Shown: positions 13,140 through 54,400 of the stretch, piece after piece
Layout of the letters: every line of letters begins with the position of its first letter
Position numbering within the stretch: the stretch's first letter is position 1
Assembly: GCA_964019135.1 (NCBI GenBank)
Contig: OZ025260.1
Span: forward strand, 23,368,254-23,432,253
DNA length: 64,000 nucleotides
Direction of reading: 5' to 3'
From: Arenicola marina
Lineage: Eukaryota > Annelida > Polychaeta > Arenicolidae
Notes under the pieces: generated by a model
What the model was told of the DNA's origin: nothing
Seen by the model: only the letters and a program-made list of their open reading frames with translations
Database searches by the model: none
Position numbers and translations under genes: made by a program

Positions 13140-13276
13140 GGAAATGTCTGACCCTTTGACCGGCCATGTACTATGTGTCTGACTCTTTGACCTGCAATGG
13201 GCTACGTGTCTGACCCTTTGACCTGCCATATACTATGTGTCTGACCCTTTGACCTGCCATATATTATGTGTCTCAC
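13140..13276. repeat. 31-bp minisatellite at the E3 splice donor, unit 1
   Basis: About four copies of a monomer containing CTGACCCTTTGACCTGCCAT fill intron 3. The copy nearest E3 runs into the donor (minus strand ACG/GTGAGACACAT). Confidence 0.85.
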
Positions 13277-13374
13277 CGTTGAAGGCCTCTTCGGGAACTT
13301 TGTTCCAGTTGATGGTCCTCATTCGGACTTTGGGGGTCGGCGTCCTCAGGGCGATCACGTGACCTGTAGCCAGT

Positions 13375-13495
13375 CGGGGTGGTGGGCGAGGGCCTTCCAT
13401 ACCTGGTAGTGGCGGTGGTGGGGGAGGGGCTCCCATACCTGGTAGAGCCGGTGGTGGGGGAGGGCCTCCCATACCTGGTAGTGGCGGTGGTGTTT
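13375..13495 (-). repeat. FH1 proline repeat, unit 1 (about 3 copies)
   Basis: 36-bp coding repeat (12 residues, [12 protein letters not shown] type), cut off abruptly at about 13490 by the deletion joint. Confidence 0.85.
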
Positions 13496-26303: not shown

Positions 26304-35432
<9,129 letters not shown>

Positions 35433-43386: not shown

Positions 43387-43624
43387 AATGAATGTTTACT
43401 TTTTGTTGTAATAGTAACTTTAAATTAAGAGTCATAAAGAGTTATAAAGTCGAGATTTATTACATAAGACCTCCATGTGACGGAAAATGTATGATTTACC
43501 GGGTGGACTCCAGTTAACTTTTTGTTAATTAGAACATTCAACAGTTCAACGTTTGGTGGAATTATTATTTGTCAATCTGAATCTGTGCTTTCAGAAATTC
43601 ACCTTCACTCGACCCAACTACAAC

Positions 43625-44947
43625 ATGGAGCGGAAACTGAGGATGTTCTGTAATCTGTCAAGGTACCAGTTGTTTGTCTTGTTCAACGGCTTCGTGACCG
43701 TCCTGCGCGCCATCTACTGGTGGCTGACGGGACGAGCGGCGGAGATTAAAGCTCACCAGGCCGTCTACGCAACATCCGCCCATAAAATGGGATTCGCCTA
43801 CAAGTTTCGGTTGGATTTGGTGTGTAGTCCGGGACGGCATAACTTTGGACTCTACCACGAGGAGTTTGTCCATCCGGAGTACGTTCTTCGTGACGAGGTC
43901 AGCCTCATGCAGATCACGACGACGGAAGCCATCTTCATAGAGAGCAAGAAGGACGCCTTGCCGGCCTACAAAGCCTGCCACAACTTCCTGTTCAACGGAC
44001 AGTGGGCAACTGCCCACAAAGTCATCACCATGCCGCTGAAGTCGATGCTGCGACTGGCTCAGGATATAGAAGAAGAGGGAACCAAGGTCATCTTCATCTA
44101 TAACCAGGGTAGGGTCGGGTCCACTCTGATGACTGGTATCTTTGAACACACCAACCGCTGCATCACATTCTCCGAGCCTCACCCCCTGAATGCCGCATGC
44201 AAACTGGTCTTAATCGACAAGATGTTTGACAAGAGAGAGGGATTGGCTTTCATCCGGAACACGCTGCGTGTGCTCTGCAAGCCCTGCAGGAGCCTTCCGG
44301 ACAAGATCCTGGCCTACGTCATCAAGCCCAAGGCGTCAACTATTGCTGCCGCCGATCTGATAGAGGAGGCGATGCCAGAATCCATTCCTCTCTTCATGTA
44401 TCGGGATCCAGTGGCAGTGGGACAGTCCTTCCGTCGACTCGCCGAAGCCGTTCCTTCCTTGAAGATGATGTGCTATTTGATCGAGCTACAGATTCCTAAC
44501 CTAATCTACAGGTATGTATCGGTCACTGGTCAGGTGGCGGTCGTGTTCAAGGGATTCACGCCAAGAGCCGGCACCGGGTTGGAGTGCGGCTATTACCTGT
44601 CTATGGCCATGCTGCACTACATGGATCTGATGCGAAAGAAGGGACTCCATATTCCCGCCATTCGCTACGAGGACCTCCGCGACCACCCCAAGGCGATGGT
44701 GCATAAGATCTTTAAGTTGTGCTGTCTTCCGGATTCCCTGGTGGATCCCGCTCTGGAGGCCATGGACAAGGACTCACAGGGTGCCACGGACTTCAGTCAG
44801 AAGCTACTCCGCCAGCTGATGCCGGTGTTGCCCAAGCCGACGCCAGAGTTCTTTGATGAGATGAGGGTGGAGGCCAAGAGGCTGGGGGTCCCGGAGCCTG
44901 AGGTCTGGACCAGGGACTACCACGTTGAGAACAGTATTGTGCCGTAA
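43625..44947 (+). CDS. Sulfotransferase-like type II membrane protein (copy 3, diverging)
   Basis: The third copy, also intact at 440 aa. The N-terminal two thirds equal copies 1 and 2. Four substitutions cluster within about 60 residues of the C-terminal third: AMPHY to AMLHY, KIVKLC to KIFKLC, CGLP to CCLP and GSTDF to GATDF. Both PAPS-binding motifs are unchanged. The changes begin just before the point (about 45640) where the rest of unit 3 becomes clearly diverged, so they may mark the edge of the older sequence rather than selection. No frame break is seen. Confidence 0.85.
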   Translation: MERKLRMFCNLSRYQLFVLFNGFVTVLRAIYWWLTGRAAEIKAHQAVYATSAHKMGFAYKFRLDLVCSPGRHNFGLYHEEFVHPEYVLRDEVSLMQITTTEAIFIESKKDALPAYKACHNFLFNGQWATAHKVITMPLKSMLRLAQDIEEEGTKVIFIYNQGRVGSTLMTGIFEHTNRCITFSEPHPLNAACKLVLIDKMFDKREGLAFIRNTLRVLCKPCRSLPDKILAYVIKPKASTIAAADLIEEAMPESIPLFMYRDPVAVGQSFRRLAEAVPSLKMMCYLIELQIPNLIYRYVSVTGQVAVVFKGFTPRAGTGLECGYYLSMAMLHYMDLMRKKGLHIPAIRYEDLRDHPKAMVHKIFKLCCLPDSLVDPALEAMDKDSQGATDFSQKLLRQLMPVLPKPTPEFFDEMRVEAKRLGVPEPEVWTRDYHVENSIVP

Positions 44948-45496: not shown

Positions 45497-48400
45497 TTAC
45501 ACAAGATCATTAATATCAAAGACTTTTCTTTTCTTCTTTCTGCCTTTATTTTCGTCTCGCCGCTTCTGGGCTCTCTTTGTTCGAATCTTCTCCTCCTCTA
45601 GCTCCTTTAATCATAGGATTAACACAGGTTACATTGAGCTACATTTATCACAAACACCAGTTAGTATGATTACTATGTATATATAACCGCCCGGCGGCAC
45701 CACCGTCGGTCGTGCTTACCGCAGTTTATAATCTTCAAGACCAGATCATTGTAGATCTATTTGCATGCATAGAAGAATGTAGTCATAGTATAAAAGAGAT
45801 GAAAAGTTACGCACTGTTTTATGTCTAAACGTCTCCCTAGCATGATAGAAAAAAAAAGGTCTGCGACTTAAATTGTTTTCGCTCATGTCCCCCCACACCA
45901 TATACCACTCACCCTCTGACACTGCTGTATGTGCACACACCATGTCTTTGTCCACCCGATACAGCCTTCTAGGCTGAATTTTTGGGGATCTTCCCCGTAA
46001 CGTCTGGCCAGGCGCACAGAGAGCGTGTCTATGTCGGCGAGGCCTCCTGCCAGCTCGTCCAGCTGCCCCATCGCTTTCTGTCGTTCATAAGCGGGGAATA
46101 GGGCAACGAGTGAGTCTTACCCTCTGACACATTGGTGTGGGGAGTATGTGGGTGGGAAGTAAGGGGGGGGGGGGAGCTTATGTGGCAAGTACCTAATGAA
46201 GCTACCAACTGACGGGTTTTACGACCGTGAGCGGAAGGGGGTGGGGGTGGAGGGGGGGGGGAGGTGCTTGTGCAGGGCAACACAATAATTTTGAGTTCAG
46301 ACCGTACCGTTACCAATGAAGCAGAGCATTCTCGCCAAAATTGTTTGTGGTGGAGGTGGGGGGGGGGGGGCTCAGACCCATCCCCATGCCTCTGGATTAT
46401 CGCCTGCGATTGGTGGGTGTATATGTATCCGTCAGTTTACGTATGAAAATGTAGACTATTTATTTATTTTCAAGCCTTAAATTACTGAATATATGACTAA
46501 TTAGGATGGGGGGGAGGGGGGGGGGGGTCATGTTCCCAGATCACGAAGAATTAATTTCTGTATACCCAGATCACGATGAATTAAAAGAATAACTCCCCGC
46601 ATAAAATGGAAGGGCGGATACATGATAATAAATTGACGATTTCCCACTTCACGGTTTTTTAATATGTAAATTTCCAGCTCACGAATAATGAAAATCCTTG
46701 ATCACGGCGGTCGGCTAACACCTTATTCCCAGTTCACGAAGAATTATTTTCCTTATTCCCGATTCACGGTGAATTGAAAAGCCCATTCCCGAGGACGCGA
46801 GGAACCTTGCGCCCCCCCCCCACCCCCCTAGGATATGAGTACCGTGGATATTACAATGTAAAACACGGTGAACTAATTGCTTTCTATTCGGGATCGGAGA
46901 CGGAAGGATACCTGAACAAATGGCTTAAACTGATCCCGAATATTTTCATCACAATTGTCTAGGTAGGATGTTAACTTCTGGACGCCGGTTTGGGTGGCCT
47001 TGACATCTGCCTTGATGACGTCAACGCTCAGCCTACAAGATATTTGAGTAAAATCAGCAAGAGCATTAGAGGACATGAGGTCGTCGAAGGTCAGCTATAT
47101 GGAGTGTCACAAGATCCAGAATATTGAACAATATTGGACACTATTGGATCCCAGCAGCTCGCCCACGGTGTTAACCTGGCTGCCGGCCTGTGTATGTGTG
47201 TGTTCTAGGCTGAGTATCCACTCAGTGTTAACCTGGCTGGCGGCCTGTGTGTTTGTATGTGTTCTAGGCAGAGTATCCACTCAGTGTTAACCTGGCTGGC
47301 GGCCTGTGTATGTGTTCTAGGCAGAGTATCCACTCAGTGTTAACCTGGCTGGCGGCCTGTGTATGTGTGTGTGTTCTAGGCAGAGTATCCACTCAGTGTT
47401 TACCTGGCTGGCGGCCTGTGTGTTTGTGTGTGTTCTAGGCTAAGTATCCACTCAGTGTTAAACTGGCTGGCGGCCTGTGTGTGTGTGTGTGTGTGTGTGT
47501 TCTAGGCTGAGTATCCACTCAGTGTTAACCTGGCTGGCGGCCTGTGTGTGTGTGTTCTAGGCTGAGTATCCACTCAGTGTTTACCTGGCTGGCGGCCTGT
47601 GTGTGTGTGTGTTCTAGGCTGAGTATCCACTCAGTGTTAACCTGGCTGGCGGCCGGGGTATGTGTGTGTGTTCTAGGCTGAGTATCCACTCAGTGTTAAC
47701 CTGGCTGGCGGCCTGTGTATGTGTGTGTGTTCTAGGCTGAGTACCCACTCAGTGTTTACCTGGCTGGCGGCCTGGGTATGTGTGTGTGTTCTAGGCAGAG
47801 TATCCACTCAGTGTTAACCTGGCTGGCGGCCTGTGTGTGTGTGTGTGTTCTAGGCTGAGTATCCACTCGGTGTTAACCTGGCTGGCGACCTGTATATGTG
47901 TGTGTTCTAGGCAGAGTATCCACTCAGTGTTAACCTGGCTGGCGACCTGTATATGTGTGTGTGTTCTAGGCTGAGTATCCACTCAGTGTTAACCTGGCCG
48001 GTGGCCTGTGTATGTGTGTGTGTTCTAGGCTGAGTATCCACTCAGTGTTAACCTGGCTGGCGGCCTGTGTGTGTGTGTGTTCTAGGCTGAGTATCCACTC
48101 AGTGTTTACCTGGCTGGCGGCCTGTGTGTGTGTGTGTTCTAGGCTGAGTATCCACTCAGTGTTAACCTGGCTGGCGGCCTGTGTGTGTGTGTGTTCTAGG
48201 CTGAGTATCCACTCAGTGTTAACCTGGCCGGTGGCCTGTGTATGTGTGTGTGTTCTAGGCTGAGTATCCACTCAGTGTTAACCTGGCTGGCGGCCTGTGT
48301 GTGTGTGTTCTAGGCTGAGTATCCACTCAGTGTTAACCTGGCTGGCGGCCTGTGTGTGTGTGTGTTCTAGGCTGAGTATCCACTCAGTGTTAACCTGGCT

Positions 48401-51400
48401 GGCGGCCTGTGTATGTGTGTGTGTTCTAGGCTGAGTATCCACTCAGTGTTAACCTGGCTGGCGGCCTGTGTGTGTGTGTTCTAGGCTGAGTATCCACTCA
48501 ATGTTAACCTGGCTGGCGGCCTGTGTGTGTGTGTGTGTTCTAGGTAGGTTATCCACTCAGTGTTAACCTGGCTGGCGGCCTGTGTATGTGTGTGTGTTCT
48601 AGGCAGAGTATCAACCCAGTGTTTACCTGGCCGCCTCTGTTTGTGTTCTCAGCAGCTCATCCACAAAGCCCATCAAATCCTTGTCCGCTCGCTGAGCCAT
48701 CTGCACGATGACGTGTATGAAGTTGGTTCGAGGCTTATTGGACTTCACTCCTGCCAGCAGCGTCAGAGACTCCAGTGTAAGCCCCAGGGCGCCGCCAGAG
48801 TAGCAACCCTACGAGAGACAGAACGAAGGTCTTCATCGAGAGACACCCAGCGGTGAAACGTCCAACATGCTGAGCGATTGTATTGCATTGTAAAAAGTGA
48901 ACGCAACTCAAGAAGTAAAACACCAAATTATTCATTAGTTGACGATTACTCACGTGGTTAATATAGTTGCCAATCCGCACAGTGAGCCACAGGAAGTGTG
49001 TCAGGCTTGAAGGTCTCAAAAGGGCTTCGCAGGCTGTGATGATGACCCGGATCTGACCTTTAATGACGTCATAGTTTACGTCAAACTCGGCCCTGAGGGT
49101 GAGTCCATCCAGTCTGCGCTCGTAGGCAGGAAGTGACGTCAGCTGGAGATAAAACTTCTCCGCGTCTCCCAACTGACTCGGGTCACCGGAAAAGGACTTC
49201 AGTAGCGCCACCTGGCGAGAGGAGAAATAAACACAATCGTCAATTCCCAGCTAACAAGTTAGTCTTAAACAAGACCAAACCTATTGGTTTTATCTGACCA
49301 TTAGTGGCCGTAGACTTGTCCGGCAGGTGGCACCACAAGGACAATCTACCCACCTCATCTGCTGTGGGGAGGAGCTTCTTCAAGGCCACCAGCCTGGCCA
49401 CGCCCACCTCGGTCACGTGACCAGTCTTGATGCAGTCCACGATCTTCTCAGACGGAGACTTAAACTGCCTCAGGAAGATGTTCACGTTCATACTTCGCTT
49501 GCCATCCAAAAGTAAGATCTGAAGGAAATAACAAGGCGATAATTTACAAATTGATGCATACACCTTGACCCTCCATGACACAGCTCGAGGGCTGCCACTT
49601 TGGCGATACTTTTGGCTCGACAATCAATTGTTTATGGGATGCGATTCCTGTTATAAATACCCTGGGAGGACATAAAGAATTTAGAATTATATATTATATA
49701 TTATATAATATATAACTATATATTTCTTATTTCCACAGGTGGCCTGTGGTGTCTCCAGCAACCAACTCCAATGAGAGATGTACACCCGGACAAGATGTAG
49801 CGTGTGAAGGGGAGTCTGTGGGCGTTAACTCTCACCTTAGAGGACTTTTTGGTGTTGTTCATTTGGTCGGTGGCGCCCCCAGCGGTGGGAACCACGCGGC
49901 AGAAGAGATCCTCGATCGCCTGGAAGTCGATAGGGACCGGATCCTTGAGGGACCAGACCTCGCGCCAGATACTCGTGACATCTGGAGCGAGACGAGACCT
50001 TTGGTTTATACACTGGATGGGGTGTGACGTCACGACCACGAAGGGACGGAAGGAAGGAAAGGGAAATGTCTGACCCTTTGACCTGCCATGGGCTACGTGT
50101 CTGACCCTTTGACCTGCCATATACTATTTGTCTGAACCTTTGACCTGCTATGTATTATGTGCCATACCCTTTGACCTGTCATGGCCTTCTTGCCTGAATC
50201 TTTGACCTGTCAAGGGCTAGGATTTTGATCCTTTGACCTGCCATATACTATGTGTCTGACCCTTTGACCTGCCATATACTATGTGTCTGACCCTTTGACC
50301 TGCCATATACTATGTGTCTGAACCTTTGACCTGCTACGCATTATGTGCCAGACCCTTTGACCTGCCATGGCCTTCTTGCCTGAATTTTTGACCTGTCAAG
50401 GGCTAGGATTTTAATCCTTCGACCTGCCATAGGTTACATGACTTACCAGAACATCAGCGGGACAGCCCGTAGCGGGCTTGTTGGCATTATCCTCATCATA
50501 AGTAAGTTGATGGCATCTGCAACATTACGATATAAGTATCTTGTCTAACATTCTTTACACAATAATCCAGCAGCTCACCGTTGAAGGCCTCTTCGGGAAC
50601 TTTGCTCCAGTTGATGGTCCTCATTCGGACTTTGGGAGTCGGCATCCTCAGGGCGATCACGTGGCCTGTAGCCAGGCCGGCCGCAGGGTGGCCTAGTCCC
50701 AGTCGGGGTGGTGGGGGAGGGCCTCCCATACCTGGTAGTGGCGGTGGTGGGGGAGGGGCTCCCATACCTGGTAGTGCCGGTGGTGGGGGAGGGCCTCCCA
50801 TACCTGGTAGTGGCGGTGGTGGGGGAGGGGCTCTCATACCTGGTAGTGGCGGTGGTGGGGGAGGGGCTCCCATACCTGGTAGTGGCGGTGGTGGGAGAGG
50901 GGCTCCCATACCTGGTAGTGGCGGTGGTGGGGGAGGGGCCCCCATACCTGGTAGTGCCGGTGGTGGGGGAGGGCCTCCCATACCTGGTAGTGGCGGTGGT
51001 GGGGGAGGGGCTCCCATACCTGGTAGTGGCGGTGGTGGGAGAGGGGCTCCCATACCTGGTAGTGGCGGTGGTGGGGGAGGGGCCCCCATACCTGGTAGTG
51101 GCGGTGGTGGGGGAGGGGCTCCCATACCTGCCATAGGAGGTGGTGGGGGAGAGGCTTCTATGCCTGGCAAAGGCGGAGCTGGGGGAGGCGTGGTACTGTC
51201 TACTTGACTTGGCTGTAGAGATAACTCAATACCCGTAGCTGGGTCAGAATTTTCTGGAGTCCGACTGACATCCTTTGAAATATCAGTATCATCTTCTAGA
51301 TTATCAAGGTCATATCCTGGATTGTCAAGGTTATTTCCTGCATTGTCAAGGTTATTTCCTGCATTGTCAAGGTCATTTCCTGGATTGTCAAGGTCGTCTC

Positions 51401-54400
51401 CAGGTTTACCAAGGTCCCTGGCCTTGGCGATAGCATCCTTGGCCTGCCGCTGCCGCTGACTGGGCATCTGCTCTACGTGGGTCTGGATAGCTGTCCATAC
51501 CACGTCTCTGTAACCAACACATACCACGTCTCTGTAGCCAACATATACCACGTCTCTGTAACCAACATATACCACGTCTCTGTAACCAACATATACCACG
51601 TCTCTGTAACAACAACATATACCACGTCTCTGTAACCAATATATACCACGTCTCTGTAACCAACACATACCACGTCTCTGTAACCAACATATACCACGTC
51701 TCTATAACCAACATATACCACGTCTCTGTAACCAACATATAGCACGTCGCTGTAACCAACATATACCACGTCTCCATAACCAACATATACCACGTCTCTG
51801 TAACCAACACATACCGCGTCTCTAACCAACATATAGCACGTCTCTGTAACCAACATATACCACGTCTCTGTAACCAACATATACCACGTCTCTAACCAAC
51901 ATATACCACGTCTGTGTAACCAACATATACCCCGTCTCTGTAACCAACATATACCACGTCTTTGTAACCAATATATACCACGTCTCTGTACCCAACATAT
52001 AGCACGTCTCTGTAACCAACATATACCACGTCTCCATAACCAACATATACCACGTCTCTAACCAACATATACCACATCTCTGTAACCAACATATACCACG
52101 TCTCTGTAACCAACATATACCACGTCTCTGTAACCAACATATAGCACGTCTCTGTAACCAACATATACCACGTCTCCATAACCAACATATACCACGTCTC
52201 TGTAACCAACCCATACCGCGTCTCTAACCAACATATAGCACGTCTCTGTAACCAACATATACCACGTCTCTGTAACCAACATATACCACGTCTCTAACCA
52301 ACATATACCACGTCTGTGTAACCAACATATACCACGTCTCTGTAACCAACATATACCACGTCTTTGTAACCAATATATACCACGTCTCTGTACCCAACAT
52401 ATAGCACGTCTCTGTAACCAACATATACCACGTCTCCATAACCAACATATACCACGTCTCTAACCAACATATACCACATCTCTGTAACCAACATATACCA
52501 CGTCTCTGTAACCAACATATACCACGTCTCTGTAACCAACATATACCACGTCTCTGTAACCAACATATACCACGTCTTTGTAACCAATATATACCTCGTC
52601 TCTGTAACCAACATATACCACGTCTCTGTAACCAACATATATTACGCCTCTAGAACAAGAGATTATAAAGGGTGTGTGAGGGGGTTGGTCTGAGAGTTGG
52701 TGTTTGAGAAAGTCCGTCTGAGGTTTGGTGTTTGACGGGGTTCGGCTGAGAGGGCATTTTACAGTTGACCACAAACTCTCTCAATAAAGAGACATGTATT
52801 AAAGTTAAGCGAATTTCAAACATGTATTAAAGTCAAGCGACTTTCAGACATGTATTAAAGTCAAGCGACTTTCAGACATTAATCGACATTGTCCAAGTCC
52901 AGGGTTCATTTATTTTCCTAAAGGTGCAGGTATTGAAACATTAATGGTGGATGAAATATTTTTTAACATAGGACGCACAACCGGTAAGACTATATGTGTG
53001 TATTTTATCAATAACATTAGATGGCTCAGTATTAACTAGTTTGCTGATGCTATATTTCATACCTGTGGTTGCAAAGTCGTGATAGTGTCTGTTGGTGTGT
53101 AGCATTTGCTTGTTTCTGGTATTGTATGTGTGAACATCTTCAGTACGATAGAATATTATTTTCGAATAGTAAGACGGAAGCCCATCGTTTTCAAGTTTGT
53201 GATAGAATTTTAACATGGGTTACCTGTGACTATCGGGAAGCTTCAACAACCGAAGACGTATAAATACGGAGTCTGTATGCGCATTATAGCTACTTCTCGT
53301 TAGTAAACGTATAGCTTTTTTGTGTAGTTTATGCGGCCTTTCCCATTGATGAGAGAGGGGGGGTGGGGGGATAGGAGGGATACGCCCTCTGAATCGCGAA
53401 TCCCCAAGAATTACGGAGAGTAATATCGAATCTCCAAGATTGAGACATTTTAAAGCTGGGCGCGAAAGAAAACGCCTTAATGGTGATATCGCAAATATCG
53501 AGGAATTCGTAGACTGCTATAACGGATCGCGGTAAATAAGGAGTGGGTCTTCGCGTTGCACCAGGAATTGTAAGCAAAAATTGCCAACAGCAAATGGCGA
53601 ATCTCCAAGAATTCCTGGATGCCAATCGCGGAGATCGGAAAAGATATTCCCCCCCTACTCATTAATATCTCAACGCCAGAATGCTGTAGTTAAGGTGTAG
53701 GACTAGTAATGACTAGTAGATAAGTTGTAAAGCCTCTGGTGGCAGAATGAAGTTTAGGGTCCTTAAAATACCAACATTTTTTTATATGTTCCCAGTTACT
53801 CCATCAACATGTGATTGGCGATTCAAGCTTGGAGTTATTGTGAGGCCGAGTAGATTATTCTTATAGGTTCGTCTACACGTTTTAATCGCGTGGTAGCTAT
53901 AATTAGGTTTAGGACTGTTACATGTTTTGTGGCGTATGAAATACCATATATTTGCATTTACATTAAATTTATTTGTTCTAAACCAGGTAGAAATATTTAC
54001 CAATTCATTATTTAACAAGTCCGTTTGGTCCTTGGTCGAGCCAACATAACCGCTTTGGCATAACATACTAAAGTGTCATCGGCATAAATAATGAATCTGT
54101 AAACCTTACTAGAAGCTGTAACGTCATTGATATAGATGATGACTATCAGAGTTCCAAGTATAGGAGCCTTGTAGAACCCCTGCTACCGCTACAGATGAGA
54201 GTTCTGAATTGACGTTCTTTAGTTGGGTATATATATGCTTTCGAGTTTCCAAATAGTTTACTATCAATAATAATGCTTCATCTTGAACACCGTAGTGCTT
54301 GAGTTTACGAGACAAAATGCTGTGGTCTATAGTGTGAGATCTAGGTATTTATGGATTGGTACGTCTCTTTTGTCCATGCTATCTATTGTTCTATCGATTA

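Follow-up and report, generated by a model that had tools for sequence, protein, structure and literature searches.

Minisatellites whose repeat unit crosses an intron/exon boundary have been described in amphioxus as 'mirage' minisatellites, with regular splicing kept (PMC3087553, PMC3902484). In those accounts, which concern Adh3, the globins BflGb6 and BflGb9, troponin C and PGBD5, the tandem repeats lie across 3' or 5' exon edges, their length is unstable, and many, not all, of the units carry AG/GT signals. Further parallels are human segmental duplicates, where minisatellite expansions (units averaging 30 bp) sit at the edges of recently duplicated genes (PMC2812944), the human polyubiquitin gene UBC, where splice signals with dual-specific sites recur once per tandem unit (PMC10809524), and earthworm metallothionein, an annelid case of tandemly arranged genes with intronic minisatellite arrays (PMC12783039).

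The array described here, at the start of a formin exon in the polychaete Arenicola marina, differs from the amphioxus mirages in belonging to another phylum, in its 48 units, where the BflGb6 haplotypes have 6 and 3, and in having a unit that is a multiple of 3, keeps an open frame and is common to five gene copies. It is known from genomic sequence, the changes in human segmental duplicates from RNA support as well; its 24-bp unit offers an acceptor only, unlike the UBC units, which are coding repeats with AGGT serving as donor or acceptor; and the earthworm arrays are placed within intron 1, the excerpted text not stating whether they span a splice site. The architecture, put forward in the initial annotation as apparently new for a formin, is thus that of the described mirages. 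No annelid case appeared among the literature matches listed, in a search that left most subscription papers outside its coverage, so that novelty is not proven; what seems new to us is a mirage in a protostome, its recurrence across formin genes, and frame-neutral units that vary in number among five INF2 copies.

The 24-bp array and the start of exon E3

The window, by which we mean the whole 64,000-nucleotide stretch of DNA analysed, contains a formin copy (L001) in which the array lies upstream of E3 and runs across the E3 acceptor (Table 1); the unit number reported by TRF agrees with the initial estimate of about 48. On the minus strand the consensus unit is TTGGTTACAG/AGACGTGGTATATG and the final unit is TTGGTTACAG/AGACGTGGTATGG, where the slash marks the exon edge and 51507 is the first base of E3. 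The intron end and the exon start therefore lie inside one unit (TTGGTTACAG/AGACGTGG...), as in a mirage, and the repeated segment consists of the intron 3' end and the first 13 bases of E3. Over positions -12 to +12, the E3 acceptor has 41 extra copies.

Table 1. Features of the window and of related loci; positions are those of the window unless a contig or locus is named
Feature	Position	Strand	Description
Window	C13:23368254-23432253		part of 867-Mb assembly
Exon E2	56916-56837	-	phase 2 end, AG/GTGAGA; kept in other copies
24-bp minisatellite array	51497..52641	-	48.1 units, 91% matches (TRF)
In-frame open ACAG acceptors, L001	51603, 51579, 51555, 51531, 51507	-	8 residues per step
Exon E3 (DID end, linker, FH1)	50579..51507	-	donor AACG/GTGAGC at 50579
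36-bp coding repeat	50707..51188	-	encodes FH1 proline tracts
Exon E4	49836..49981	-	edges by sequence reading
Exon E5 (FH2)	49354..49518	-	PF02181 33.5 bits, slightly below cut-off 34.8
Exon E6 (FH2)	48954..49211	-	PF02181 58.8 bits
Exon E7 (FH2 continuation)	48627..48808	-	by sequence only
59-bp minisatellite	47168..48631	-	25.2 units, most with GCCAG/GTTAACACTG; begins at E7 donor GCGGCCAG/GTAAACACTG
Exon E8 (FH2 continuation)	46912..47032	-	by sequence only
Sulfotransferase-like open frame	43529-44947		472 aa
Second formin copy, L003	31986..32328	-	14-unit version of acceptor array
31-bp array, L003-type copies	31122-31254		flush with E3 donor (AACG/GTGAGACACATA)
Truncated formin copy	13378..13492	-	carries E2 (donor 14952) and an FH1 stub; lacks array and E3 start
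31-bp array, truncated copy	13145-13277		flush with E3 donor
24-bp-family array, L020/L021	C9:35151937-35152618		away from formin matches; 2/24 differences
24-bp-family array, L022	C4:5527317-5527661		away from formin matches; 3/24 differences
54-bp array, L033	L033:2367-2773		nearly fills intron
54-bp array, L027	L027:4636-5060		nearly fills intron
FH2 match on a separate contig	G000:C504:13887-14966		near full length

It had been claimed that every full monomer repeats the acceptor. This does not hold, and conservation of the repeated acceptors finds no support, in L001, where 38 of 47 scored units retain the AG (the script counted one 50-bp double unit as a single unit) and the other nine read ACAA, ACAC or ATGG; six units are 22 bp long and carry TTAG. 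Mismatches in L001 are commonest at a single exonic-half G (6/40) and in the CAG columns (5, 4 and 5 of 40), but when each distinct 24-bp unit of the five copies is taken once, nothing sets the AG columns apart (1 and 2 of 26). TRF also reports a 166-bp period in the L001 array, so its units are not independent, and we conclude only that nothing points to protection of the repeated acceptors there.

E2 ends in phase 2, its two spare bases AG standing ahead of GTGAGA, as first read. Phase had further been held to demand the acceptor at 51507, which proved too strong: five AGs downstream (51459, 51417, 51264, 51207 and 51195) and several upstream share the right phase and read openly, so phase alone cannot fix the site. 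The protein match adds to this. Joined at 51507, E2 and E3 align without a gap to INF2 residues 286-320 (4.8 bits for that stretch), and the unit-derived exon bases encode DVVW where INF2 has QLLW. The post-junction INF2 score of 22 is the best among 327 AGs after the E2 donor (runner-up 11) and was reached by a fraction of 0.00015 of 200,000 shuffles; against human INF2, 13 of 36 residues of E2 and E3 are identical. The match is short and by itself weak, and hence supports 51507 without proving it. E2 and the E3 start alone returned nothing useful in Pfam and PDB searches, and the INF2 match surfaced only with the FH2 exons in the query. As an acceptor 51507 is weak, with 10 pyrimidines in 20 and a score of 0.4, which 8.3% of 3687 minus-strand AGs reach, on a hand-made matrix of metazoan frequencies; the other exons score 5.0 (E2), 1.3 (E4), 6.3 (E5), 9.2 (E6), 6.9 (E7) and 2.9 (E8). 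We regard 51507, in the last monomer as originally proposed, as the best-supported candidate for the E3 acceptor.

The FH1 region of E3 matches Pfam PF06346 with 41.1 bits (cut-off 40). For the FH2 exons tested, the best PDB match was inverted formin-2 (E 4.9e-25), to which all four top-ranked entries among 13 PDB sequences belong. On the DID side only the end of the domain (E2 and the E3 start) matched INF2 286-320, weakly. No convincing further DID exon was found within 30 kb beyond the window, with human INF2 as the query, and profile searches gave no match to Drf_GBD or Drf_FH3 near the formin cluster, hence no N-terminal exons were found. Taken on these matches, the host gene appears to be INF2-like.

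Formin copies and their surroundings

Tandem units of about 17-20 kb recur through the window, and five formin copies bear the array: L001 and L003, both in the window, L004 and L005, to its left, and L007, which is inverted and 370 kb away. All five are identical over 57 bases from the TTGG of the last unit onward, that is, across the E3 junction. Their arrays, five paralogous copies in one assembly, measure about 48, 14, 14, 12 and 6 units, so that unit number varies among paralogues as expected of an unstable mirage. L003-L005, whose sequences ahead of the array agree at about 97-99%, have an intact AG in 37 of 37 scored units; in L007 the second-last unit is without it.

At the other end of E3, the L003-type copies carry a 31-bp array flush with the donor, as does the truncated copy, and the donor flank of L001 and L007 is unlike that of the L003-type copies. 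The 17-20 kb repeat also includes a sulfotransferase-like open frame, whose match to Pfam Sulfotransfer_3 (E 1.2e-4) does not reach the cut-off. Elsewhere in the assembly, a near full-length FH2 match on a separate contig (E 1.7e-50) runs across 5 TAG and 7 TAA codons. TAA and TAG are read as glutamine in the genetic code of many ciliates, and this contig may be a contaminant from an associated ciliate.

The mitochondrial contig reads, on one strand and for the genes sought, cox1, cox2, nad6, cob, atp6, nad5, nad4L, nad4, an rRNA-sized gap, nad1, nad3 and nad2, an order in which nad6, cob, atp6 and nad5 were called by eye and nad2 by position. This fits the annelid ground pattern, in which the excerpted source places nad3 next to nad1 and has atp6 flanked by cob and nad5 (PMC2639372), and thus indicates an annelid host. 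An amphioxus host was rejected on this order, and also because a search for the GFP family gave no match, although the controls of that search gave no signal either. The interval between atp6 and nad5 has 1.1 kb without frames of at least 150 aa on the gene strand; the same excerpt gives a major non-coding region adjoining atp6/trnR for Clitellata, Maldanidae and Terebellidae (PMC2639372).

Similar arrays in other formin genes and the origin of the array

Of 25 FH2-exon acceptors at nine further formin loci, 5 have extra upstream copies over -12/+12; these count as four independent cases, since L027 and L033 are close paralogues, and with the INF2 exons included the figure is 6 of 32. The 25 were drawn from 44 FH2 matches, leaving out 15 that belong to the INF2 cluster and 4 beyond the sampled stretches, and their splice sites were picked by script, not annotated. 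The units are of 64 bp in L032 (21 extra copies), 54 bp in L033 (5) and its paralogue L027 (6) and 75 bp in L036 (3), while L035 has one single extra copy by script count. The 54-bp array nearly fills the intron between two FH2 matches, starting about 20 bases past the upstream one.

Controls place these counts in context. Mid-exon positions had copies in 1 of 32 cases (E3, where the FH1 repeat occupies the exon middle), and shuffled edges in 0 of 640 at two stricter thresholds and 2 of 640 at the loosest. The shuffled controls used a robustness script that takes edges by first text match, starts in an array copy wherever array copies are exact, and itself finds 5 of 32, losing L036; the acceptor counts given above are those of the main scan. 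Positions drawn at random 200-1500 bases away from exon edges, by comparison, had a copy in 150 of 618 (24%); random surroundings are hit about as often as acceptors, so splice edges are simply not spared. No donor of 32 had copies at the strict -12/+12 threshold, and 1 of 18 tested did when it was relaxed. By eye, donor-side arrays were noticed at E7 (59 bp) and at the E3 donor of the L003-type copies (31 bp); the former, as a candidate, fails the strict copy test, its exonic half being different. Most 59-bp units hold CACAG, a 12-base stretch and CCAG/GTTAAC, in principle usable as donor or acceptor. In this minisatellite-rich genome, the INF2 array is most likely a neutral mirage.

We infer that a short segment, the intron 3' end with the first 13 bases of E3, would have been tandemly duplicated on the intron side, and that the array would then have grown and shrunk by slippage or unequal exchange. 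Splicing would take place mainly at the exon-proximal acceptor, 51507, and the other units, being intron if that is so, would be free to drift. On the sequence evidence, this account of a mirage-type minisatellite with one mainly used acceptor and otherwise near-neutral intronic units is probably correct.

The opposite direction of events, in which a dispersed 24-bp minisatellite was inserted into the intron and the unit at its edge came to serve as acceptor and opening bases of E3, is unlikely, even though C9 and C4 bear arrays, remote from formin matches, with units only 2 and 3 of 24 positions off the INF2 unit, and the two other arrays searched (64 bp and 59 bp) turned up only at their own genes in best-candidate searches. 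The gap-free placing of DVVW at INF2 QLLW favours an ancestral coding origin for the exonic half, and in three other formin arrays (L032, L033/L027 and L036) the exonic half lies within the FH2 profile match, so that seeding from the exon looks like a local rule. Because near-identical arrays sit on C9 and C4 without a formin, birth from the E3 edge is not proven; these arrays may be either escapes from INF2 or members of a dispersed repeat from which the acceptor was later recruited. About 2 kb from the C9 array there is also a frame resembling a sulfotransferase (Pfam E 0.002, under the cut-off).

The in-frame acceptor ladder

A ladder of in-frame acceptors, as proposed at the outset, does exist on paper with steps of eight residues, but in L001 it comprises five ACAG sites rather than 48, spanning +0 to +32 residues, the outermost (51603) sitting in a 26-bp unit. 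AGs two bases lower in the units, from 51627 to 51699, also read openly in frame but have scores of only -5.9 to -6.5; above E3, an in-frame stop is first met at 51704.

If the spliceosome picked among these acceptors, isoforms longer by 0, 8, 16 and further residues (GYRDVVYV type) would arise between the DID end and FH1. The number of in-frame open sites (5 in L001, 11 in L003 and L004, 9 in L005, 5 in L007) and the acceptor score of the 26-bp unit, the highest of the ladder (1.9), would suit such use, and work on human genes reports stochastic use of the repeat-borne splice sites of UBC (PMC10809524) and a capacity of exon-intron boundary repeats to change splicing (PMC2812944). Against it, the upstream choices score -2 to 4 against INF2 where 51507 scores 22, nine scored units of L001 and the second-last of L007 are without the AG, and the amphioxus mirages are reported to splice normally (PMC3087553, PMC3902484). 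We consider a used ladder quite improbable, and judge it very unlikely that all five INF2 copies make graded isoforms, with a DID-FH1 spacer growing by 8 residues per step up to a maximum set by the nearest frame-shifting unit. That the array is itself an exonic, coding repeat is rejected as scarcely credible, its 65 open codons above the E3 start notwithstanding, given the stop at 51704 in L001 and the frame shifts of one 26-bp and six 22-bp units.

Acceptor choice is directly testable here, since the five INF2 copies differ in their number of in-frame acceptors. Were the ladder used, changes in minisatellite copy number would tune formin isoform length with the coding exon proper unchanged. 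If boundary-spanning arrays are as common genome-wide as in the sampled formin genes, the genome would hold many natural experiments on how the spliceosome chooses among near-identical 3' splice sites, and also on how tandem duplication makes introns grow or creates new ones.
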